Assembly: GCF_000424145.1 (NCBI RefSeq)
Contig: NZ_AUJI01000019.1
Span: 1-64,000, forward strand
Origin: Butyrivibrio sp. AC2005
GTDB lineage: Bacteria; Bacillota; Clostridia; Lachnospirales; Lachnospiraceae
Direction: 5' to 3'
Length of the DNA stretch: 64,000 nucleotides
Part shown: positions 45,895-61,571 of the stretch, piece by piece
Numbering within the stretch: position 1 is the stretch's first letter
Layout: each line of letters starts with the position of its first letter
Made by a program: the position numbers and the translations under genes
Notes under the pieces: model-generated
Seen by the model: only the letters and a program-made list of their open reading frames with translations
Database searches by the model: none
Told to the model about the DNA's origin: nothing

Positions 45895-45923
45895 AAAGAC
45901 GCAGCAGTAATCACTGCGTCTTT
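45895..45923. terminator. bidirectional terminator between convergent genes
   Basis: AAAGACGCAG (45895-45904) pairs perfectly with CTGCGTCTTT (45914-45923) over a 9-base loop, with T-rich flanks in both directions. The stop codon of the minus-strand gene (45911-45913) lies inside the loop. It ends both the AAA/nuclease and the glycosyltransferase transcripts. Confidence 0.8.
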
Positions 45924-47455
45924 GCTATTTCAAGGATTTTATCTATGACAGTTTGCATATCGCTTTTAATGTCTTTTGAAAACAGGGTTCCAAATTTTGC
46001 CTTGGCTTTATCGGATTGTTGTTTGTAATATTCTTTATCTGTGATGTAGTGAAGTGTATCGGCTATCATCTCATTATAATCTTTACATATAAAATCTTCA
46101 CCCGCAAAGCCTGCTACATCACTATCCGGCAGTGTGGTAACAGGAATACCTGCGCGCATTGCTCTTGTGGCACCGCCGGCACCTCCGGATCGCTTGGGGT
46201 TTATAAAAAGGTCGATTATTTTTAATACGCTGAGGAAGTCTTTTCTGTATCCGAGGCGTAAAGATCTCTTTTCAAGTATTTCTGGCAGTTCCTGCTCAAA
46301 ATCCCCTATGAAAACAAAATATGCTTTGTCATTCTGCTCAGCAATGGAGGTCATGACATTTCTGAATTCTTCTGTGACTTCCCTTTGGATTCGGTTTCCG
46401 ATGATACCGAGGGTAAATGTGTCCTCAGGGATTCCGAACGCTTTTTTGGAATATTCGTCTTCCTTCTTTTCCTCTGTATAACCAAAGCCTGTCATATGAA
46501 AGAAAATGGACTCCTGGCCCTGTGCTTTTACATAGGCATCAGCTTCCGGTGAGATATCACCTGTCTGGTATCTTGCAAGGAGATGGGCGTCTGAAACCTC
46601 GTGGCCATGGGTTACAGGCATTGCAATATAGGTTGTGATGGAGCGCCATATCTGATCCATGCGGGGGAGGCCGTTTATCTGCCAGATAAACTCCGGTCGC
46701 AGGTTATATATTTCGCCGATAAATGAAATCATGTCGTCCCTTGATGCTTTGTTTATATCGATCTGATGGCAGTGAATTATCTGGTCATGATAGTTGAAAG
46801 CAGTGGTTCCCCAGTCGTCTGTGTAGTTGGGAAGCATTATATCTCCGGTCCAGATTTTTGAAAATTCATTTACATCAATAGGTTCGCCGATGACGATGAG
46901 TAAGACTTCATAACCAAAGTGGTTTTGCAGGTGGTGACATACGGAAAGAACCATGTTTGTCGGGGCGTGTCTTACGCCAAGAAGTTGATATGTGGTGACT
47001 ATGGCAAATTTGTGGTCTCTCTTTTCATAAGGAATCATCTCGATATTGCAGTCGAGTTCCTTTAAATATCTCTGGGAAATATATCGGTGTAGTGTTCTGC
47101 GAATTGCATAGTCATCAAGCGCACCGTTTAAGAAGCGCTGGTGGTAGGTCTGAAAATGAGCAGCGCAGGTGAGATTCATGTTGAAGGCGCCGGTCATGAG
47201 GATTTCCTCGACCTTATACATGTATTTCATGTCGGGAGCAGCCCAGTAAACTGCGGACAAGACCATCATGTAGAGCTGCGGATCCGATGCGAAATTCTGA
47301 TCGAAAAGAGGCAGCAGTTCATCTGCAGTCCAAGAGTCCTTTTTTATTTGCTCCGACAGCTTTTTTAACTGGGGCTCGTAGGCCTCGGTTCTGTATGGAT
47401 AATCTGCTTCTATTACAGTAGATATTTGTTCGCATAAGGCTTCAAAGTTTTTCAT
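45911..47455 (-). CDS. GT-B glycosyltransferase next to flagellin
   Basis: A 514-residue protein with an N-terminal helical region (1-~145) and a GT-B-like fold. FAIVTTYQLLGVRHAPT starts the acceptor domain. The second domain has LGIIGNRIQREV, YFVFIGDF and RSGGAGGATRAMRAGIPVTTLPD, which resembles the donor-binding loop of GT4/GT41-type enzymes. It follows flagellin on the same strand and has a strong GGAGGGGG site. Position suggests it glycosylates flagellin or acts on its glycan (inference). The donor is unknown. A strong hairpin lies between the two genes, so expression may be partly separate. Confidence 0.75.
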   Translation of the reverse strand: MKNFEALCEQISTVIEADYPYRTEAYEPQLKKLSEQIKKDSWTADELLPLFDQNFASDPQLYMMVLSAVYWAAPDMKYMYKVEEILMTGAFNMNLTCAAHFQTYHQRFLNGALDDYAIRRTLHRYISQRYLKELDCNIEMIPYEKRDHKFAIVTTYQLLGVRHAPTNMVLSVCHHLQNHFGYEVLLIVIGEPIDVNEFSKIWTGDIMLPNYTDDWGTTAFNYHDQIIHCHQIDINKASRDDMISFIGEIYNLRPEFIWQINGLPRMDQIWRSITTYIAMPVTHGHEVSDAHLLARYQTGDISPEADAYVKAQGQESIFFHMTGFGYTEEKKEDEYSKKAFGIPEDTFTLGIIGNRIQREVTEEFRNVMTSIAEQNDKAYFVFIGDFEQELPEILEKRSLRLGYRKDFLSVLKIIDLFINPKRSGGAGGATRAMRAGIPVTTLPDSDVAGFAGEDFICKDYNEMIADTLHYITDKEYYKQQSDKAKAKFGTLFSKDIKSDMQTVIDKILEIAKTQ

Positions 47456-47477
47456 ATCCCCCTCCGATAATGAAACG

Positions 47478-47523
47478 TTAAAAAGTCTATACCGTCATTA
47501 TAACATAGTTATAGTGACGGTAT
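47478..47523 (-). terminator. flagellin terminator
   Basis: Sixteen-base arms (about 47489-47504 and 47508-47523, containing ATACCGTCA and TGACGGTAT) pair almost perfectly across a 3-base loop. A run of five T follows on the minus strand. It lies directly after the flagellin stop codon and is a classical intrinsic terminator. Confidence 0.85.
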
Positions 47524-47528
47524 ATCGG

Positions 47529-49385
47529 TTAGGACAAAAGTCCTAATACACCTTGTGGCGTCTGGTTTGCCTGGGTAAGCATTGCCTGACCTGCCTGTTG
47601 TAGCAGATTGTGTTTGTGGTAATTGGCGATTTCTTCAGCCATGTCTGTATCTCTTAGTCTTGATTCTGCAGAAGTTGTATTTTCAATAACATTATTAAGG
47701 TTCATGATAGTGTGCTCTATTCGGTTCTGAATGGCACCATAGTAGCTGCGGACGCTGCTTACCATCATTATTGCATCGCCGAATTCATCGATGGCAGAGG
47801 TAGCTTTGTCCATGGTTAGAACGTTAGTGTCGGTGAGCTTAAGCGCATCGCAATCCATTTTGAAAAGATTTACCTGAATCTTGTTTGGCATATCTGCATC
47901 GGTACCAAGGTGTAGACTGACAGTGTTGTAGCCACCGCGTTCGCGGGTATCTTCAAATTGTAGATAGGATTCTTTGACACTAAAAATCTTCATGGGCTGA
48001 GCGTCAGGATCTGCAGTATCATGTAGGACAGCTTCGCCACCTGTAGTTAAAGAATCTGCTATAAAAGAAGCTCTGCCATCTTTGCTGTTGTATATAAATC
48101 GTCTCACAAACTCTACAACACTAACTTTTTCAGGTGTCGTGGAGAATGAATCTGTTGATCCATTGCTAAAAGCATCTTTTAATTCATCTGGTGTTATTCC
48201 GGTCAATTGTTTGAATGTATCTTCAAAGGTTGAGTCTGTATCAATAAGTGACTGAAATATTTTATTTGCCCCATTTAATATATTTTCACGTGTGACATCA
48301 TTACCGTCGGCAGCGAGATAACTGGAGTAGGCAGCAGCTAAAAAACCGGTACCATATACATTTTCGTCAATGGCTTTTTCAGGTAATTTTAAGTAATTTG
48401 CAATACCTTCATCTGCCTGGTTGCTATCTGCATTAGAAAGATTCCTTACCATATATTGGATGGAGTAGACTTTATCCATTCCGCCACCCGCAAGTTGGGC
48501 AGTACCCTCTACAAACCAATCAGGGAATTGTGACCACATATTATTATCGTTTGCTGCATAATATGTTAATTGCATGAAACCGTGCATGGTCTCATGTCCC
48601 AGAGCAACCTCCAGGTAGTCCTTTTGACGCTGGGTAAGATTTCCGGGAGGAAAATCGTAATCATCTACATATAGTTCCAGTTTATAATTGTACTTGCCAT
48701 TTTTCATGGGATCATGGGTTATTCCCATCATGGCTGCTATTTTGTTGGTTCCATCCAGACCATCTATATAATCCAGGAATAATGTGGTATTAACAACACC
48801 ATTTTCTTCTGCATATTTCTTTACAGCATCTCCCAAAGAAGGAAAAGCATTAGCTATCTGTTCAACGGCATTTGGGTAATATTCGTTTGCGATTCTCCAT
48901 GACAGAAGTGTGTAATCATCAGGAATTAACTTTTCTTTAGCTTGAGTCGGTAATGGTGGCAGAACACCATCCTTAACAAACACATTTAATTCATTAAATT
49001 TGGTTCTGCTTGTAATTGAATCAATTTCTTTTTTTAATTGTGTTATCTCATTATTTACTGCTACGCGGTCTGAGTCTGATAGTGTTCCGTTTGCAGCCTG
49101 AATGGCAAGTTCATTTCCACGTTGAAGCATATCGTGAACTTCTGCGAGGGCACCATCTGCTATCTGAGAAAGACCGATGCCGTCTTCGCCGTTTTTAACA
49201 GCTCTGCCAAGGCCACGTATCTGCCTTCTCATTTTTTCGGAAATGGAGAGACCTGCAGCGTTATCTGCAGCACGATTAATCTTCAAACCGGAGGAGAGTT
49301 TTTCCTGGGATTTGGAGACATTGGAAAGAGTATTCTTATTTTGGATAGCAGAATTCATAGCTGCTATGTTGTGCTGTATCCGCAT
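47529..49385 (-). CDS. flagellin with inserted zinc metallopeptidase domain (flagellinolysin)
   Basis: A 618-residue flagellin. Residues 1-~140 (MRIQHNIAAMNSAIQNKNTL, then LSSGLKINRAADNAAGL) and about 525-618 (ending ANQTPQGVLGLLS) are the conserved D0/D1 domains. The hypervariable region between them holds a gluzincin-like peptidase: H264-E265-x2-H268 in ALGHETMHGF, with E293 in WFVEGTAQ as probable third ligand. This is the organisation of flagellinolysins, flagellins that assemble into proteolytic filaments. The key residues are all present, so activity is expected. A sigma-28 type promoter lies upstream and AGGAATGG precedes the ATG. Substrate is unknown. Confidence 0.92.
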   Translation of the reverse strand: MRIQHNIAAMNSAIQNKNTLSNVSKSQEKLSSGLKINRAADNAAGLSISEKMRRQIRGLGRAVKNGEDGIGLSQIADGALAEVHDMLQRGNELAIQAANGTLSDSDRVAVNNEITQLKKEIDSITSRTKFNELNVFVKDGVLPPLPTQAKEKLIPDDYTLLSWRIANEYYPNAVEQIANAFPSLGDAVKKYAEENGVVNTTLFLDYIDGLDGTNKIAAMMGITHDPMKNGKYNYKLELYVDDYDFPPGNLTQRQKDYLEVALGHETMHGFMQLTYYAANDNNMWSQFPDWFVEGTAQLAGGGMDKVYSIQYMVRNLSNADSNQADEGIANYLKLPEKAIDENVYGTGFLAAAYSSYLAADGNDVTRENILNGANKIFQSLIDTDSTFEDTFKQLTGITPDELKDAFSNGSTDSFSTTPEKVSVVEFVRRFIYNSKDGRASFIADSLTTGGEAVLHDTADPDAQPMKIFSVKESYLQFEDTRERGGYNTVSLHLGTDADMPNKIQVNLFKMDCDALKLTDTNVLTMDKATSAIDEFGDAIMMVSSVRSYYGAIQNRIEHTIMNLNNVIENTTSAESRLRDTDMAEEIANYHKHNLLQQAGQAMLTQANQTPQGVLGLLS

Positions 49386-49471: not shown

Positions 49472-49499
49472 ATATCGGCAGAATGGGTGTGGGAGTTTA
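49472..49499 (-). promoter_or_regulatory. sigma-28 (FliA/SigD)-type flagellin promoter
   Basis: On the minus strand, TAAA (49499-49496), a 16-base gap and GCCGATAT (49479-49472) match the flagellar sigma-factor consensus TAAA-N15-GCCGATAA. It lies 87 bases before the flagellin ATG, a normal distance for late flagellar genes. Confidence 0.85.
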
Positions 49500-49651
49500 G
49501 TGGAGTCTTTATCACATATTTTTCATTACATCACCTTTTGAAAAAAGGTTGCCCTTAACATTATTTCTTACCGGATTGAGTTGTTCCTTTTTTATCATGT
49601 AGGTCAAATTCTGTCTGGAGCAGTCCAGAGTGCTGCAGCATTGTGCTGTAT

Positions 49652-49978
49652 CTAATTGTTGCAGAGGATGTCGCTTAATGGATCAAAAGCTGCAGCGTCA
49701 GCATCTGTCATACATGGGTAAATAAGTGACAAACCATGATCAAACAGTGACGCAATTCTAAGGGCGTGCATTCTTGAATTGCGTAGAATTTCTATGTTTG
49801 CACCATGCCTGTCTCTGTTCAGTATTATGTAATCGATTGCGATCATGCGGTCAATATATTCTTCGAAGCCATTACGCACGCAAAAATCATAGTGGGTTTC
49901 CCTGGGATCAGCGTTAACTGTGTAATAATTATTTTGGAGCGCCTGATTTTGTTTTGGAGATATTGTCTCCATCAACAA
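49652..49978 (-). pseudogene. fragment of a HipA/CtkA-like kinase
   Basis: A 108-codon reading with DYIILNRDRHGANIEI and ASLFDHGLSL, which resemble the catalytic and metal-binding loops of HipA/CtkA-type kinases (N-x-D-R-H-x-x-N and F-D-x-G). The N-terminal half of the kinase and the C-terminus after FDPLSDILCNN are missing. It meets the opposite-strand Uma2 fragment at 49951-49978. I regard it as rearrangement debris; a short expressed protein is not excluded. Confidence 0.5.
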
Positions 49979-50205
49979 GACGAAAGGATATGTTCATTAA
50001 GAGTAAGAAATATTGTTATGCTGGCGTAAAAGAGTATTGGATGGTTGACCCTAAAAAGAAGGTTCTGATTGTATATGATTTCCTTGACGAGGATGTGACG
50101 CCGGTTATTGTGCCGCTTAAAGGTGAGTATGCATTATCGCTTTATGATGGTAAGCTGAAAATCAATCTGGATGAACTATCTGAAGCAATTGAGCAGTTTG
50201 GTTGA
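49951..50205 (+). pseudogene. C-terminal fragment of a Uma2-family PD-(D/E)XK protein
   Basis: It reads EILSPSTRRKDMFIKSKKY, then GVKEYWMVDP and an intact C-terminus. This is the second half of Uma2-like restriction-endonuclease-fold proteins (about 185 residues). The first ~100 residues, including the first catalytic acidic residue, are absent. It adjoins the kinase fragment head to head, marking a recombination point. Confidence 0.65.
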
Positions 50206-52322: not shown

Positions 52323-52373
52323 TATGTATTAGTGTAATAGTATTTATGCATTGTGTTTTACGAGGGGGACATT

Positions 52374-53750
52374 TTGCAGAAAAATATACTGATATTCCCT
52401 GCGGGGACAGAAATAGCATTTGAAATACAGAATTCTCTAAAGTATTCGAAGTTCGTAAGACTCTATGGTGGGACGAGCGCGTCTGATCATGCGGAGTTTA
52501 CTTACGAGCGTCTTATTGACGGTTTTCCTTACGTGGACGATGATGGTTTCCTTGATTATCTCAATAAAGTAATTGATGAAAATAAGATAGAATGTGTGTA
52601 TCCTGCCCATGACAGTGTGTGTCTTTTCTTTAGTGAGCATGCGGATGAGATACATGCACAGGTGATAATTACTGATGCACATACAACCGGGATTTGTAGG
52701 TCTAAGCAGAAGACCTATGAGTTTTTTTCAGGGGAGAGTTTTGTACCTAAGAATTTTGAATCACCAGATGAAGTTACTGAATATCCTGTTTTCGTAAAGC
52801 CTGCCGTGGGACAGGGCTCTGTTGGCGCGAGGAAGGTTGATGACCGGGAGGAACTGCTCAGGGTTTTGAGGGAAAATGGTTGTGTAGATGAAGATAGGAT
52901 AAAAACATCTGAAAAGGATACTAATTCTAAGAAGGAAGATAATTCTGAGAAGACAAATTCGATTAATAGTAAAAACATGGTAATATGTGAGTACCTTCCG
53001 GGGATGGAGTATACAGTCGATTGCTTCACAGATGGTGATGGTAAGTTACTGTTTTGCAGACAACGAAACAGAGAACGCATTAAAACCGGAATCAGTGTGC
53101 GCACGCGGAGTATGAATACTGATGATGCCGTGAGGACTATTGCTGAGACGCTGAATGATAAGCTATCCTTTAAAGGGGCATGGTTTTTTCAGGTAAAAAA
53201 GAAATCTAATGGCGAGTACAGACTCATGGAGGTTTCGCCCAGGATTCCGGGAACCGCAGGACTATACAGAAACTGTGGGATAAACCTTCCTATGCTGACG
53301 CTTTTTACATTCTGGGGATATCCTGTTTCGATAATTGAGAATGATTATGACATTGTTCTGGACAGGGCCTTTTACAGTGCATTCAGGATAGACTTTGAAT
53401 ATGATTACGTTTACCTTGATTACGACGATACGCTGACACTGGGAGATAAGGTGAATGCGGATGCGATGAGATTCTTGTACCAGGCAAAAAATGCGGGGAA
53501 GAAGATTGTTCTTTTAAGTAAGCATGCGACAGATCTTCACGTGGATCTTAAGAAGGCGGGGATTTCAGAAGAGCTTTTTGACAAGATTATTGTTCTTCGC
53601 AAGGACGAGGATAAGAGTGACTACATTACTGAGAAAAAGGCAATTTTCATTGATGATTCTTTTGCTGAGAGGAAAAGAATTAAAGAAAAATGCGGAATTC
53701 CGGTTTTTGATGTGGATATGATAGAGAGTTTGATTGATTGGAGAATGTGA
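52374..53750 (+). CDS. ATP-grasp ligase fused to a HAD-like hydrolase domain
   Basis: A 458-residue fusion. Residues 1-~330 are an ATP-grasp enzyme of the carbamoyl-phosphate-synthase-like group: ILIFPAGTE start, YPVFVKPAVGQGSVG (ATP loop), MVICEYLPGMEYTVD and LMEVSPRIPG. Residues about 345-458 are a HAD-like domain with VYLDYDDTLT (nucleophile D-x-D) and AIFIDDS. TTG 52374 follows GAGGGGGAC; the upstream ATG at 52353 lies before that site. ATP-grasp enzymes join a carboxylate to an amine or thiol, so it may add an amino acid or acyl group to a sugar. The substrate is not known. Confidence 0.8.
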   Translation: MQKNILIFPAGTEIAFEIQNSLKYSKFVRLYGGTSASDHAEFTYERLIDGFPYVDDDGFLDYLNKVIDENKIECVYPAHDSVCLFFSEHADEIHAQVIITDAHTTGICRSKQKTYEFFSGESFVPKNFESPDEVTEYPVFVKPAVGQGSVGARKVDDREELLRVLRENGCVDEDRIKTSEKDTNSKKEDNSEKTNSINSKNMVICEYLPGMEYTVDCFTDGDGKLLFCRQRNRERIKTGISVRTRSMNTDDAVRTIAETLNDKLSFKGAWFFQVKKKSNGEYRLMEVSPRIPGTAGLYRNCGINLPMLTLFTFWGYPVSIIENDYDIVLDRAFYSAFRIDFEYDYVYLDYDDTLTLGDKVNADAMRFLYQAKNAGKKIVLLSKHATDLHVDLKKAGISEELFDKIIVLRKDEDKSDYITEKKAIFIDDSFAERKRIKEKCGIPVFDVDMIESLIDWRM

Positions 53751-54039: not shown

Positions 54040-54405
54040 ATGACTCTTTTTATAGAAAATGTAAATAGATATATAGATCATATGAAAATTAAACAGGTTT
54101 ATTTGAGTAAAATAACCGGTATAGAAAAAAATAAACTGTCTCGTATCCTGAAGGGAACTCAGGATGAAACAGGCGCTGATATGGAAAAGATTTCAGAAGC
54201 ATTAGGATATACAGTTGACTATTTTGTATCAGATGTATTTTGTTTGCCAAAGGTAACAGATTTTCAGTCTGAGAAGGTAGCTTTTTATGCGGGAGAGCCA
54301 TCTGAAAAGCAGGAAAAAATTGCTAATGATCTGATAGAAATGCTGAAAAATATAGATTTGGTTCTGGGGGCTAAGAACCGATTTGACAATGTAGGTAGGA
54401 TTTGA
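54040..54405 (+). CDS. Xre-family helix-turn-helix regulator
   Basis: A 121-residue protein. Residues about 5-60 are an Xre/Cro-type HTH (IKQVYLSKITGIEKNKLSRI, then MEKISEALGYTVDYF). A short C-terminal tail has no recognised domain. It is probably a DNA-binding repressor of its own operon. ATG 54040 has GGAGG and AAGGA upstream. It is the first of three contiguous genes (gap of 3 bases to the next), a layout typical of regulator-plus-ImmA/IrrE pairs in mobile elements. Confidence 0.85.
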   Translation: MTLFIENVNRYIDHMKIKQVYLSKITGIEKNKLSRILKGTQDETGADMEKISEALGYTVDYFVSDVFCLPKVTDFQSEKVAFYAGEPSEKQEKIANDLIEMLKNIDLVLGAKNRFDNVGRI

Positions 54406-54408
54406 GGA

Positions 54409-55212
54409 ATGAATGCGGATAGATTAAAAAGGATAATCAGTTATAGCAGAGAATACAGGAAAGACATAGCGGCTGATGTGAAGAAATTTTGTGCTTACGC
54501 AGGAATTGACAGCGAGAGTGAGGTCCTTAATTTTAAACAGATAGTACGAGATATCTTTTTTCGAAGAGGATATTTTTTGTTTGATATGCCTTTTGAAGAT
54601 GACGAGATTGGCGGAATCTGCTACAAAGACGATGGGTTGGGATATGTTGTGATGAATACATCTCTTCCTGAAGTTAATTATACCTTTGCTCTTGCTCATG
54701 AAACATACCATGTGCTGTTTCAGGAAAGTCAGTATATATCTACTGCGGATCTGGCAGCTGATAGCTATTTTGAACATGAAGACGAGTATGTGGCAAATTT
54801 GTTTGCAAGTATGTTACTCATGCCCGAAAACAGTTTTATCAGGATGTATTCGAAATTTATACAGGAAGATAACAATTTAACAACGGCTATTATTAAGCTT
54901 ATGGCATATTATAAAGTACCATATATGGCGGTTTTGATCAGGTGTCTGGAACTTGATCTTTGTGATAAGAGTGATATATCTCCTGAAGTTATTACGCTTT
55001 CACAGCTTAGGGTAAGAGAAATTATGGAAGACCTATGGCTTGATGTTGCAATTCTTGATGCATCGGCAAAAGACGATTGTAGACGAATAGAGCGTATTCT
55101 TAATGAGCATGGACAGGAAGGTGTACGGGAAGGGTATATAACGGAAAGTATATTAAAAAAAGCGCTGGCTAATGTTCAAACTCTTAGCAAAAGGATTAAG
55201 GAGGGAGTTTGA
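54409..55212 (+). CDS. ImmA/IrrE-family metallopeptidase
   Basis: A 267-residue protein with the zinc-protease motif HETYH in FALAHETYHVLF and a downstream acidic ligand region EDEYVANLFASMLLMPE. ImmA/IrrE proteins cleave a partner Xre repressor and so derepress the operon, as in ICEBs1. The partner here would be the 54040 protein. The stop overlaps the next start by one base (TGATG). The trigger and the real cleavage target are unknown. The catalytic Glu and both His residues are present. Confidence 0.88.
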   Translation: MNADRLKRIISYSREYRKDIAADVKKFCAYAGIDSESEVLNFKQIVRDIFFRRGYFLFDMPFEDDEIGGICYKDDGLGYVVMNTSLPEVNYTFALAHETYHVLFQESQYISTADLAADSYFEHEDEYVANLFASMLLMPENSFIRMYSKFIQEDNNLTTAIIKLMAYYKVPYMAVLIRCLELDLCDKSDISPEVITLSQLRVREIMEDLWLDVAILDASAKDDCRRIERILNEHGQEGVREGYITESILKKALANVQTLSKRIKEGV

Positions 55213-56227: not shown

Positions 56228-57568
56228 ATGAATGTTGCATTTATCCCTGTGAGAGGTGGCAGTAAGTCCATACCGTTAAAAAATATAAAGCCAATTTGTG
56301 GTAAACCGCTTGTTTACTGGACAGTTAAGGCTGCCTGCGAATGTGATTATATCGATAAGGTGTATGTTGCAACGGATAGTGATGAGATCCGTGCTGCGAT
56401 CAAGACGTGCTGCGATGCAGAGGGAAATGACTTTGGGCAAAGTGAATATGATGCAGATACTACAAATGTAGAAGTGTGCTCGAATGATTTGGATAAAGTG
56501 GGTAATAGGAATGCTTTTCGTAAGCTGGAGATAATTGATCGTTCTGCTGAATCCGCATCAGATACTGCATCGACTGAATTTGCGATGCTTGAGTTTGCAT
56601 CAAAATATGACTTTGACAATATTGTGTTGATCCAGGCGACATCTCCGCTCTTGGCGGCAGATGATTTGAACAGGGGATTTGAAGCATTTGAAGAAGCCGG
56701 CGTGGATAGCATTCTTTCTGTTGTTAGACAGAAGCGCTTTAACTGGAGTGTGGATGAAGAAGGCTTCGCACATCCTTCCAATTATGATGTTTTCAAAAGA
56801 CCGAGACGTCAGGAATTTGATGGTTACTTAGTTGAGAACGGTGCTTTTTATATCACAGAAAAAAAGTATTTGATGGAATCTAAAAACCGAGTATCCGGAA
56901 ATATTAAGGCTGTTGAGATGCCCGAGGATACATTTTTTGAGATAGATGAGCCATCAGATTGGGAGATTATTGAAAGACTGATGAGGAAGCGTCTTGGCAT
57001 AGCATCTGAGCATGTTGCTAATAAGCTTGCATCAGATGAATCTACATTAAAAGGTGGGAATAATATAGGACAGAATAATGATGATACTGTCCCTGAGATT
57101 AAAATGTTCCTCACCGACTGTGATGGCTGCCTCACCGATGCAGGTATGTATTATTCGCCTGAGGGTGATCTTCTGAAAAAGTACAACACGAAAGATGGTA
57201 TGGGAATCAGACTTCTCCGTGAGCACGGAATTCTCGTAGGTATAGTTACGGGAGAAAATACCGATATAAATAAGAGAAGAGTCGAAAAGCTAAAAATGGA
57301 TATCTACGAACCGGGTTGCAGGGATAAGCTAAGTACTGTACAGCGGCTCTGCAAGGAGCGTGGGATTGATATGCAAAATGTTGCTTTTGTTGGTGATGAT
57401 GTAAATGATCTCGAGGCTATGAAAAATGTCGGTTATCCCTGCACAGTTGCTGATGGACATAAGAGTGTTAAGGCTATAGCAAAATTTATTGCAAATGAAC
57501 CCGGCGGCCACGGAGCGGTGAGAGAAATTATAGACCATATACTTGGGAAGCAATTCGGAACATCATGA
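56228..57568 (+). CDS. neuA: N-acylneuraminate cytidylyltransferase fused to KdsC-like HAD phosphatase
   Basis: A 446-residue fusion resembling eukaryotic-type CMAS. Residues 1-~260 are the cytidylyltransferase: FIPVRGGSKSIPLKNI (nucleotide loop), LIQATSPLL, ENGAFYIT. Residues about 290-446 are a KDO-8-phosphate-phosphatase-like HAD domain with FLTDCDGCLTDAG and VGDDVNDLEAM. The enzyme activates a nonulosonic acid (neuraminic, legionaminic or pseudaminic type) with CTP; the HAD part may dephosphorylate the 9-phosphate sugar. AAAGGAGAC precedes ATG 56228. neuB follows after 131 bases. Which nonulosonate is made cannot be read here. Confidence 0.88.
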   Translation: MNVAFIPVRGGSKSIPLKNIKPICGKPLVYWTVKAACECDYIDKVYVATDSDEIRAAIKTCCDAEGNDFGQSEYDADTTNVEVCSNDLDKVGNRNAFRKLEIIDRSAESASDTASTEFAMLEFASKYDFDNIVLIQATSPLLAADDLNRGFEAFEEAGVDSILSVVRQKRFNWSVDEEGFAHPSNYDVFKRPRRQEFDGYLVENGAFYITEKKYLMESKNRVSGNIKAVEMPEDTFFEIDEPSDWEIIERLMRKRLGIASEHVANKLASDESTLKGGNNIGQNNDDTVPEIKMFLTDCDGCLTDAGMYYSPEGDLLKKYNTKDGMGIRLLREHGILVGIVTGENTDINKRRVEKLKMDIYEPGCRDKLSTVQRLCKERGIDMQNVAFVGDDVNDLEAMKNVGYPCTVADGHKSVKAIAKFIANEPGGHGAVREIIDHILGKQFGTS

Positions 57569-57647: not shown

Positions 57648-57697
57648 AGCCTTTCCCCTAGGGGGAAGGTGTCAGCGAAGCTGACGGATGAGGGGAA
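57648..57697 (+). repeat. interspersed double-hairpin repeat supplying the neuB ribosome binding site
   Basis: CCTTTCCCCTAGGGGGAAGG forms one hairpin, GTCAGC-GAA-GCTGAC a second, and the element ends GGATGAGGGG. The final GAGGGG lies 3 bases before ATG 57700 and is the only visible Shine-Dalgarno site for neuB. A degenerate relative sits at 43092-43197 in the equivalent position before the GDPD gene. Confidence 0.65.
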
Positions 57698-57699
57698 AT

Positions 57700-58572
57700 A
57701 TGGAATACAGAAAACCAATCGTAATTGCAGAAGCCGGTTGCAACCACATGGGACAGATGGACATCGCCCATGAACTCATTAACGTTGCCGCATATTTTTG
57801 TAAAGCAGATGCCATAAAATTTCAGAAACGTTGTCCTAAGGAACTTTTGACTGAGGAGCAGTACAATGCACCTCATCCGAATCCGTATAATTCCTATGGT
57901 AAAACCTACGGCGAACACAGAGAGTTCCTGGAATTTGACGTGGATCAGCATGCACAGTTAAAAAAGTGGTGTGAGGAGGTTGGAATTATATACTCGACTT
58001 CTGTCTGGGATATGACAAGTGCCAGAGAGATTACAAGCCTTAATCCCAGATTTATAAAGATACCATCAGCCTGCAATACGCATTATGAAATGCTTGAGTG
58101 GCTCTGCGATAATTATGAGGGCGAGATGCAACTCTCTTTTGGCATGACAAAGCGTGAGGAGGAGGAGCAGATAGTTTCTCTTTTTGAAAAGAAGGGGCGC
58201 GCAAAGGACCTGATACTATATAACTGTACTTCAGGTTATCCCGTACCCTTTAAGGATGTATGTCTTCTTGAAATTACCCGTATGCGCGAGCAGTACGAGG
58301 GCAGAGTAAAGGCTATCGGTTTTTCCGGTCATCATCTTGGAATCGCTGTGGATGTAGCAGCATATACTCTTGGGGCAAGCTACATAGAAAGACATTATAC
58401 GCTTGATCGTACCTGGAAGGGTACGGATCATGCGGCTTCACTAGAGCCTGATGGTATCCGTAAGCTTAAGAGAAATCTTGACGCCGTGTATGAGGCGCTT
58501 AGATACAAAGATTCTGAGATACTTCCGATTGAGGAAGAGCAGAGAAAAAAACTGAAATATAGGAAGCACTAA
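57700..58572 (+). CDS. neuB: NeuB-family nonulosonate synthase, short form
   Basis: A 290-residue TIM-barrel synthase that condenses phosphoenolpyruvate with an N-acetyl-hexosamine to make a nonulosonic acid. IVIAEAGCNHMG, AIKFQKR and FSGHHLGIAVDVAA, then YIERHYTLDR, follow the family pattern. Typical NeuB proteins are about 340 residues with a C-terminal SAF/antifreeze-like domain; this one stops after the barrel, so that domain is absent. ATG 57700 is preferred over the in-frame ATG 57688, which lies inside the repeat. It lies downstream of neuA, and a terminator follows. Activity without the SAF domain is uncertain. Confidence 0.85.
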   Translation: MEYRKPIVIAEAGCNHMGQMDIAHELINVAAYFCKADAIKFQKRCPKELLTEEQYNAPHPNPYNSYGKTYGEHREFLEFDVDQHAQLKKWCEEVGIIYSTSVWDMTSAREITSLNPRFIKIPSACNTHYEMLEWLCDNYEGEMQLSFGMTKREEEEQIVSLFEKKGRAKDLILYNCTSGYPVPFKDVCLLEITRMREQYEGRVKAIGFSGHHLGIAVDVAAYTLGASYIERHYTLDRTWKGTDHAASLEPDGIRKLKRNLDAVYEALRYKDSEILPIEEEQRKKLKYRKH

Positions 58573-60434: not shown

Positions 60435-61571
60435 TTATTTATTCGGATTAATAACTATATCCAATATCCTATCCTGATCCTCCGGTGTCAAATCCTCAAA
60501 TATAGGAAGCATAAGTACATGGTTCGCCATATCTCTTGCATTCCCCAGATCACAGTGTTTGTATTTGTTCTTAAAGCATGCCTGATCGGAGGTTATTGGA
60601 TAGAAGTATTTCCTTGGATAAATATTGTGCTCCCTTAGCTTGGTGTAGAGCTCATCGCGAGTGCACTTATATCCATCCCCGATTATGATGGGGTAGTATG
60701 CATAGTTCCTGGTGGCGTCTTCGCGGGGAGTGAGGAGCCTTATTTTGGGAACACGGATAAGTGTGTTTGTATATCTTTCGTGGCACTTTTCGCGGGCACT
60801 TATTGCCTCTCCGATGTGCCTTAAATTGCACAGACCCATAATAGCGCAGAGTTCGTTCATCTTTGCATTTGCTCCGACTTCAACGACCAGCTCCTCACCT
60901 CGGATTCCGAAGTTTTTGAGGTTGTAGAGCTTTTCATATAATTCGGGATTGCTGAAAACCGCAGCACCGCCTTCCACGGTGTTGAATACCTTTGTTGCAT
61001 GAAAACTGAAAACGGAAGCATGTCCCAGATTGCCGACACCGCGCAGTACTTCTTTACCATGCGAATCGGTAGAAATCATTTTTTCACCAAAAGCATGGCA
61101 TGCATCGTAGATGACTTTCAGATTATATTTGTGCGCTATTTTTGAGATCGCCTCATCATTGCAGATGTTTCCGTAGACATGTACTGGCATGATTGCAACA
61201 GTTTTTTCTGTAATAAGATCTTCGATTTTTGTCTCATCTATTGTTCCGTCTTCAGGTTTGATATCACAAAAGACAGGATTGAGTTTGTTTCTGACAATCG
61301 CATGAGTTGTGGATATGAATGTGTATGGTGTGGTGATGACCTCAGAGCCTGCGGGGAATCCGAAGGACTGGAGTGTCAATTCCAGGGACATGTGACCGTT
61401 TACCATGAGGGAGACATAGGGGACATCCAAATATTGCTGGAGCTTTTTTTCCAGCTCCTTATGATATTTGCCCATGTTTGTAAGCCAGTGTGAATCCCAC
61501 AATGGCTTGATGGCTTCAATATATTCTTCATATGAAGGCATTGACGACTTTGTTACAAAAATTGTTTCCAT
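60435..61571 (-). CDS. DegT/DnrJ/EryC1/StrS-family sugar aminotransferase
   Basis: A 378-residue PLP enzyme. The cofactor Lys is K194 (SFHATKVFNT), D156 (YDACHAFG) binds the pyridine nitrogen, and GGAAVF and NFGIRG follow. The family transaminates keto-sugars linked to nucleotides, giving amino-deoxysugars such as Qui4N, Fuc3N or pseudaminic and legionaminic precursors. It is on the strand opposite to neuA/neuB. It may provide the amino-sugar that NeuB uses, or a separate sugar of the glycan. GGGGAC lies upstream of the ATG, preceded by a candidate promoter. Confidence 0.88.
   Translation of the reverse strand: METIFVTKSSMPSYEEYIEAIKPLWDSHWLTNMGKYHKELEKKLQQYLDVPYVSLMVNGHMSLELTLQSFGFPAGSEVITTPYTFISTTHAIVRNKLNPVFCDIKPEDGTIDETKIEDLITEKTVAIMPVHVYGNICNDEAISKIAHKYNLKVIYDACHAFGEKMISTDSHGKEVLRGVGNLGHASVFSFHATKVFNTVEGGAAVFSNPELYEKLYNLKNFGIRGEELVVEVGANAKMNELCAIMGLCNLRHIGEAISAREKCHERYTNTLIRVPKIRLLTPREDATRNYAYYPIIIGDGYKCTRDELYTKLREHNIYPRKYFYPITSDQACFKNKYKHCDLGNARDMANHVLMLPIFEDLTPEDQDRILDIVINPNK

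Follow-up and report, generated by a model that had tools for sequence, protein, structure and literature searches.

A second, strongly diverged flagellinolysin gene inside a glycan gene island of Butyrivibrio sp. AC2005

Butyrivibrio sp. AC2005 carries, on the reverse strand at positions 47529–49385 of the 64,000-nucleotide stretch analysed here (assembly GCF_000424145.1, contig NZ_AUJI01000019.1, positions 1 to 64,000; referred to as the window), a gene for a flagellinolysin, or proteolytic flagellin, which is the second copy in its genome. The encoded protein belongs to the flagellinolysin family, published in 2017, and the less ordinary aspect of the gene is that this second, unusually altered copy lies inside a cluster of sugar-attaching genes and has its own flagellar-type promoter. 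Most probably it is a duplicate that landed in a glycan island and has diverged fast with its active-site residues kept, its peptidase being displayed on the filament.

In the mechanism proposed here, the surface-exposed middle region of the flagellin would be a zinc gluzincin peptidase. The protein would be exported via the flagellar apparatus and would co-assemble among the other flagellins, leaving the peptidase on the filament exterior, where it could cut extracellular peptides. The gene would have been copied from the lineage's main flagellinolysin (C3:324976-326856, on contig C3 of the same genome) or from that of a close relative, and the copy would have landed as a self-contained unit, with its own sigma-D-type promoter and its own hairpin, upstream of a transferase gene in a glycan island that includes genes for nonulosonic-type sugars. 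After landing, it would have acquired a long end branch with retention of the active-site residues.

The flagellin, its peptidase insert and its promoter

The open reading frame (ORF) encodes 618 amino acids from an ATG start and is open throughout. Its ends match the Pfam families Flagellin_N (D0/D1 N-terminal helices, residues 3-136, positions 48978–49379 on the reverse strand; 129.1 bits against a cut-off of 26.6) and Flagellin_C (D1/D0 C-terminal helices, residues 533-617, 47535–47789, reverse strand; 88.7 bits against 23), and no Pfam family was found between them in the same scan. The peptidase insert was modelled as residues 137-487 (47925–48977, reverse strand). It contains the motif HETMH at residues 264-268 (48582–48596), in which H264 and H268 would act as zinc ligands and E265 as the general base, and, 28 residues past E265 within WFVEGTA, the third zinc ligand E293 (48507–48509), followed three residues further on by A296, the 'basement' alanine (roles according to PMC5595980). 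A sequence-only reading of the window had pointed to HETMH and E293 between normal D0/D1 domains and had likened the protein to the flagellinolysins. The residues and both flagellin ends were confirmed, and the family assignment held up as well: the NCBIfam model NF033876 'flagellinolysin' (cut-off 205 bits) was passed narrowly, with 207.1 bits (208.6 in the genome search), and the motif spacing 264/265/268/293/296 equals that of FliA(H) of Clostridium haemolyticum, whose corresponding residues are H233, E234, H237, E262 and A265 (PMC5595980).

Conservation was assessed in an alignment of 102 of 104 flagellar rows (domain longer than 270 amino acids), in which 46 columns are conserved in at least 85% of members. 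H264, H268, E293 and A296 are found in 102/102 members and E265 in 101/102; because the motif is near-invariant across the alignment, the HExxH of the window copy is not a chance occurrence. D208, D241 and D244 are likewise conserved in the alignment and retained in the window copy, their relation to the family's putative calcium site being itself putative.

The structural modelling that the sequence-only reading had proposed agrees with this assignment. Residues 137-487 were modelled with AlphaFold2 on the basis of 23 related inserts (predicted local distance difference test score, pLDDT, 82.1; predicted template modelling score, pTM, 0.85). Re-alignment (VIA) of the model against 996 candidate chains ranks gluzincin peptidases first. 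The top match is lugdulysin of family M30 (Z 11.1, 4.6 Å over 227 residues), followed by aminopeptidase N (Z 9.4) and the clostridial collagenases T (9.4), H (9.3) and G (9.0), so that a gluzincin-like fold is predicted for the insert. We infer that the window copy binds zinc, is proteolytically active, is exported and is assembled into the filament.

The pattern TAAA-N16-GCCGATAT, which we take to be the sigma-D (sigma-28) consensus, was used for promoter scoring. A site of this type matching the consensus at 12/12 positions lies at 49472–49499 on the reverse strand, 87-114 bases upstream of the start codon. Among 300 shuffled controls none reached 12/12 and three reached 11; the window holds one exact occurrence where 0.04 would be expected, and a slightly looser pattern occurs 16 times genome-wide, against two for the reversed control. 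Past the stop codon, a hairpin with a five-T run (47480–47523, reverse strand) forms a plausible terminator before the transferase gene. The 80-nucleotide stretch 47456-47535 as a whole has a fold z of -3.6; the terminator pattern scan omitted the hairpin, and the assignment comes from the RNA fold. That flagellinolysin and transferase form one operon was considered and rejected, given the hairpin between them and the presence of the transferase in four relatives with no adjoining flagellinolysin.

Origin, divergence and insertion of the gene

At least six flagellins are encoded in the genome (G000), two of them flagellinolysins (the window copy and one more) and four lacking a peptidase (two on contig C3, one on C2 and one on C9). 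This count leaves out two Flagellin_N matches, C3:89581, which is FlgL-like by sequence and position, and C1:635035. Genes for FlgK, FliD, FliS and FliW were also found. The sequence-only reading was right to treat the window gene as a flagellin; the single flagellin that it implied is not what the genome holds. Because other flagellins are present, a major flagellin could lie elsewhere with the window copy unexpressed. The plain flagellin on C9 (L019:9730-11445, reverse strand, 571 amino acids), situated away from the others, has a very divergent D0/D1 (end branch 1.85).

The second flagellinolysin, G000:C3:324976-326856 (= L017:12977-14857), has 626 amino acids, scores 286 bits with NF033876 and is 53% identical to the window copy over the whole protein. 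It has a plain flagellin on either side and a Maf-like gene downstream, and the order is identical in the relatives G015 and G018 (3/3 genomes), a flagellin and Maf-like context unlike that of the window copy. The Maf-like gene (C3:327938-329803, outside the window) matches PF01973, a family that presumably covers Maf proteins, at 114.1 bits (cut-off 34.6), and the PseD model NF050051 at 112.3 bits, far under its cut-off of 670. Immediately before it lies a short ORF (L017:15665-15967) with no family match in the scans, which by position alone resembles GlfM, the Maf partner (PMC13317340). A block of three ORFs (267, 414 and 172 amino acids) occurs both at positions 159-2787 of the window (reverse strand) and at L018:11479-14107 (reverse strand), near the end of contig C3 and close to its flagellin cluster, and looks like a repeated mobile element.

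Two trees of the peptidase insert were built, a quick one of 116 rows (domains shorter than 180 residues or below 55 bits and duplicates being excluded) and a careful one of 27 domains out of these 116. In the latter the window copy clusters with the C3 copy, G018 and G015 (support 95/91), and its end branch is about nine times longer than that of the C3 copy (1.74 vs 0.19). In the quick tree it falls within a clade of 11 rows including Pseudobutyrivibrio, with no resolved position there, and has an end branch of 1.32 against a median of 0.25, three rows being longer. The D0/D1 tree gives a milder contrast between the end branches of the window and C3 copies than the insert (0.42 vs 0.12). Among the 22 other genus flagellinolysins, the best insert identity to the window copy is 43.7%, with the C3 copy. 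The window copy is, as judged from these comparisons, probably a paralogue of the C3 flagellinolysin or a copy of a close relative's gene. Two other origins were considered and set aside: horizontal transfer from another genus is not needed, as the gene clusters with Butyrivibrio relatives (95/91), the long branches making its placement unsure, and a chimera of an unrelated flagellin and peptidase is at odds with the D0/D1 tree, which also places the window copy with Butyrivibrio flagellinolysins (G018, 81).

The manner of insertion is indicated by four relatives (G015, G018, G034 and G025) that carry homologues of the adjacent transferase (76-81% identity), none with an adjoining flagellin. 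In G025, the sole relative with both flanks in common, two genes lie upstream of the transferase, L079:5869-6678 and L079:6665-7462, the second ending 74 bp before it. Remnants of both persist in the window on the reverse strand, residues 108-206 of the 269 of the first, an unnamed gene, at 49655–49951, and residues 218-264 of the 265 of the second at 49515–49655, the end of which borders the flagellinolysin unit on the left. The left flank stops at the stop codon of the L079:6665-7462 counterpart and similarity to G025 picks up again at the ribosome-binding site of the transferase, the unit thus occupying what in G025 is a 74-bp gap. A further remnant, of a helix-turn-helix (HTH)-Uma2 gene, lies at 49933–50202 on the forward strand; in G015 and G034 this gene is whole and stands beside the same transferase. 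The spot is variable, because G015, G018 and G034 carry different genes there. The flagellinolysin gene appears, from this comparison, to have been inserted as a unit beside the transferase.

The glycan island and the rival explanations

The sequence-only reading had placed the gene beside a large glycan-modification island and a GT-B enzyme, both of which proved real. The transferase (45911–47455, reverse strand, 514 amino acids, a single match in the genome) has a helical N-terminal part and a predicted GT-B fold (model pLDDT 75.0, pTM 0.66) that is nearest to the O-linked N-acetylglucosamine transferases (O-GlcNAc transferases, OGTs), with a Foldseek value of 6.5e-13 against XcOGT and a VIA Z of 19.8 over 351 residues. 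By sequence, Pfam returned just Glyco_trans_1_4 at 21.4 bits, below its cut-off of 27, and NCBIfam gave no match at 0.01; no curated OGT model was matched. Among ten chosen island proteins are eight of GT2, one of GT1/GT4 type and one UDP-galactopyranose mutase. The island further contains an ATP-grasp protein (52353–53750, forward strand), a cytidylyltransferase joined to a KdsC-family phosphatase domain (56228–57568, forward strand; TIGR01670 132.5 bits, over cut-off), a NeuB-family synthase (57688–58572, forward strand; below the NeuB and PseI equivalog cut-offs) and a DegT/DnrJ/EryC1/StrS aminotransferase (60435–61571, reverse strand). For 56228–57568 the KDN-9-phosphatase and PseF equivalog models stayed below their cut-offs, and the predicted function is to activate a sugar of nonulosonic or ulosonic type. 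Two LicD proteins, a GDPD and a glycerol-3-phosphate cytidylyltransferase-like domain (below cut-off) are also present. The island recurs in the four relatives, where ATP-grasp, cytidylyltransferase and DegT are found in 4/4 stretches and NeuB and LicD in 3/4 each. In G018 pieces of it occur twice, at C5:203601-204119 (L083) and on C32 (L077), one of the two places holding residues 342-514 of the transferase, a C-terminal fragment with 82% identity, together with short LicD-type pieces; from these doubled pieces the island seems to be rearranging. Also within the island, at 54040-55212 (forward strand), a small ORF that is HTH-like by eye precedes a Peptidase_M78 (IrrE-like) protein, a regulator-type pair.

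There is about an even chance that the island is devoted to a surface polysaccharide or a teichoic-acid-like polymer, the flagellinolysin having merely landed there. The many GT2 proteins, the UDP-galactopyranose mutase, both LicD proteins, the GDPD and the sub-threshold cytidylyltransferase-like domain fit such a polymer, as do the empty site in G025 and the varied contexts of the genus flagellinolysins elsewhere. What speaks against it is the transferase itself, whose fold comes closest to that of protein-modifying enzymes and some of whose homologues stand with flagellin and Maf-like genes, namely in G014 (L081), among Maf-like and flagellin genes, and in G015 (L076), about 6 kb from a flagellin.

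These same two observations, with the NeuB, cytidylyltransferase and DegT genes close by, are the grounds for a further reading, in which the filament is both proteolytic and glycosylated and the adjacent OGT-like transferase and nonulosonic-type sugar genes act on it. Because of this OGT-like transferase, the homologues near Maf-like or flagellin genes and the nonulosonic-type sugar genes, modification of the flagellin is plausible, and a filament of both kinds is plausible but unproven; that these neighbouring genes act on it is, on balance, unlikely. The four closest transferase homologues are without an adjoining flagellin, and therefore the transferase did not evolve for the window flagellin; a hairpin separates the two genes; and sugar-only GT4 enzymes such as BshA come close behind in the fold ranking (Z 18.6 vs 19.8, over the catalytic part), so that an OGT-like fold cannot be assigned from the catalytic half by itself. 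The glycan neighbours are not typical of genus flagellinolysins: among the 23 of them, within an 8 kb range and with some stretches ending at contig ends, one lies near this transferase and three near a Maf-like gene, and ten have an IleRS-like or glycogen-phosphorylase-like gene (names by inspection) in that range. Across the 79 genus genomes, co-occurrence was not significant either with the transferase (flagellinolysin in 6/13 genomes with it vs 16/66, p 0.17) or with Maf (7/17 vs 15/62, p 0.22), in statistics uncorrected for relatedness and for incomplete genomes. To count as present, a transferase match had to reach E <= 2.4e-23, as it did in 13 of 16 matching genomes, and a Maf match E <= 3.2e-33 (17 of 24); among the weaker matches thereby dropped are those of two flagellinolysin carriers, G040 for the transferase and G012 for Maf.

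The combination of proteolysis and glycosylation, which the sequence-only reading had thought notable, is not clearly new. Flagellin glycosylation in Butyrivibrio was described in work of 2000 on B. fibrisolvens OR77 (as cited in PMC13317340), a report that also favours a glycosylated filament here, and Clostridium novyi is both a flagellinolysin carrier (PMC5595980) and a species whose flagella are predicted to be glycosylated (PMC13317340), not necessarily in one strain. In the flagellinolysin literature itself, glycosylation is mentioned once in the main text of PMC5595980, with regard to artificial fusions, and not in the available text of PMC7643111.

It is improbable that the window gene is a redundant second copy losing constraint, with a flagellin part that assembles or is barely expressed and a peptidase already impaired. 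The long end branches in both insert trees would fit such decay, as would the ten of 46 conserved columns changed in the window copy (one in the C3 copy, one in the median member) and the failure to find an orthologue in the other 78 genus genomes. Yet the frame of 618 codons is open, the catalytic and conserved Asp residues are intact, both flagellin ends score over their cut-offs and the sigma-D site is exact.

Several observations weigh against the preferred reading. The altered columns, exceeded by two of the 102 aligned members and equalled by one, include W307Y, A215K, M279N and G439A, and because of these ten changes activity may be reduced or lost. The eight columns counted as functional (H264, E265, H268, E293, A296, D208, D241 and D244) are all unchanged, and the chance that they would escape ten random changes is 0.12, which is weak support. 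The NF033876 margin of the window copy is about 2 bits, whereas the C3 copy reaches 286. In the D0/D1 tree the sister of the window copy is the G018 flagellinolysin (support 81) and not the C3 copy. No close orthologue by which selection on the window copy could be gauged was found in the 79 genus genomes. The insert model gave no match to the PDB at E <= 0.001 with Foldseek alone, and a search of PDB sequences with a profile of the 23 inserts brought up no peptidase. The other five flagellins score 8-10/12 when scanned for promoters in this way, within the shuffle range, for which there are two explanations, promoters at other places or a consensus that is looser in this organism than the one used for scoring. 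The sequence of the window copy is compatible both with a shift of substrate and with a weakening of the gene. On the preferred reading of a displayed, fast-diverging duplicate, we infer that it is expressed, makes up a share of the filament and has an altered choice of substrate.

Least credible, and very improbable, is that the moved duplicate is evolving a new specificity and that O-linked sugars from the adjacent OGT-like enzyme shield the filament from its own peptidase: such a shield would have a purpose, because the recombinant insert of the Hylemonella gracilis enzyme cleaves itself and the flagellin of another species (PMC7643111), but neither the transferase (p 0.17) nor Maf (p 0.22) co-occurs significantly with flagellinolysin over the 79 genomes.

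Distribution, relatives and known systems

Flagellinolysins were found in 22 of the 79 genus genomes (11 over the NCBIfam cut-off and 11 below it, full-length or nearly so), with 23 genes in all and two copies in this genome only; HExxH and WFxEG are kept in 21/21 of those from other genus genomes. Across the family, the insert profile matches 22 of 397 genomes, the present one included, some matches being secreted proteins. Several copies per species are not new in themselves, because the survey of 2017 had 86 sequences for 74 species (PMC5595980). Some family members are very long, namely L204:112-2997 (reverse strand, 961 amino acids), L205:934-3990 (forward, at least 1019) and L209:904-3870 (forward, 988); several hundred extra residues follow their peptidase, for which no Pfam family reached its cut-off.

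A flagellinolysin-type peptidase (HExxH ... WFxEG) also occurs with no flagellin domains, in proteins of L105-L109 and L047-L053 (for example L108:6268-8799, reverse strand, 843 amino acids) that have a signal-peptide-like start by eye. A profile of seven such proteins has matches in 18 of the 79 genus genomes (E <= 3.6e-26, not all inspected singly); in the window's own genome the profile searches returned flagellinolysins only. Five of the proteins showed no Pfam family over cut-off, and NF033876 matched two of the five, far below cut-off. They are candidates, by sequence, for the nearest non-flagellar relatives of flagellinolysin, the direction of transfer being unrooted, and according to the founding paper the ancestral protease that was inserted is yet to be identified (PMC5595980). 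They are thus recognisable by sequence as the same peptidase family, where no solved peptidase is. A protein of G170 (L203:250-2412, forward strand) begins with a signal-like stretch and carries a type I dockerin, a Thr-Pro linker and a peptidase of the flagellinolysin type, which falls within a flagellar clade (Shimodaira-Hasegawa-like approximate likelihood ratio test, SH-aLRT, 98, quick tree); it looks as if a flagellar protease had moved out of a flagellin into a cellulosome-type protein. A literature search returned no paper combining dockerin, flagellin and metallopeptidase.

Taken together, the results indicate a rumen Butyrivibrio with genes for proteolytic flagella in duplicate. The window gene belongs to a known family, and with its duplication, its acceleration and its insertion into a glycan island it offers a useful test case, but nothing beyond that; the short- and long-branched copies in one genome form a natural pair for questions of specificity change and filament glycosylation.

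Among known systems, the M9 clostridial collagenase peptidase domains, M30 lugdulysin and the M1 aminopeptidases resemble the insert in predicted fold (Z 9-11), yet they give no match to its sequence profile. The neighbouring 514-residue enzyme shares with the GT41 O-GlcNAc transferases (XcOGT, human OGT) a helical N-terminal part followed by GT-B, at about 10% identity, whereas GT4 enzymes such as BshA reach 15-18%. The closest likeness is to the flagellinolysins or FlaMP proteins themselves, FliA(H) of C. haemolyticum and HgrFlaMP of H. gracilis, which have flagellin ends and a gluzincin insert in common with the window copy. Activity has been proven for C. haemolyticum filaments and recombinant insert, together with presence in the filament (PMC5595980), and for the recombinant insert of H. 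gracilis (PMC7643111); the window copy is known from its sequence alone. Unlike either enzyme, it is a strongly diverged second copy, set in a glycan island and provided with its own sigma-D-type site.

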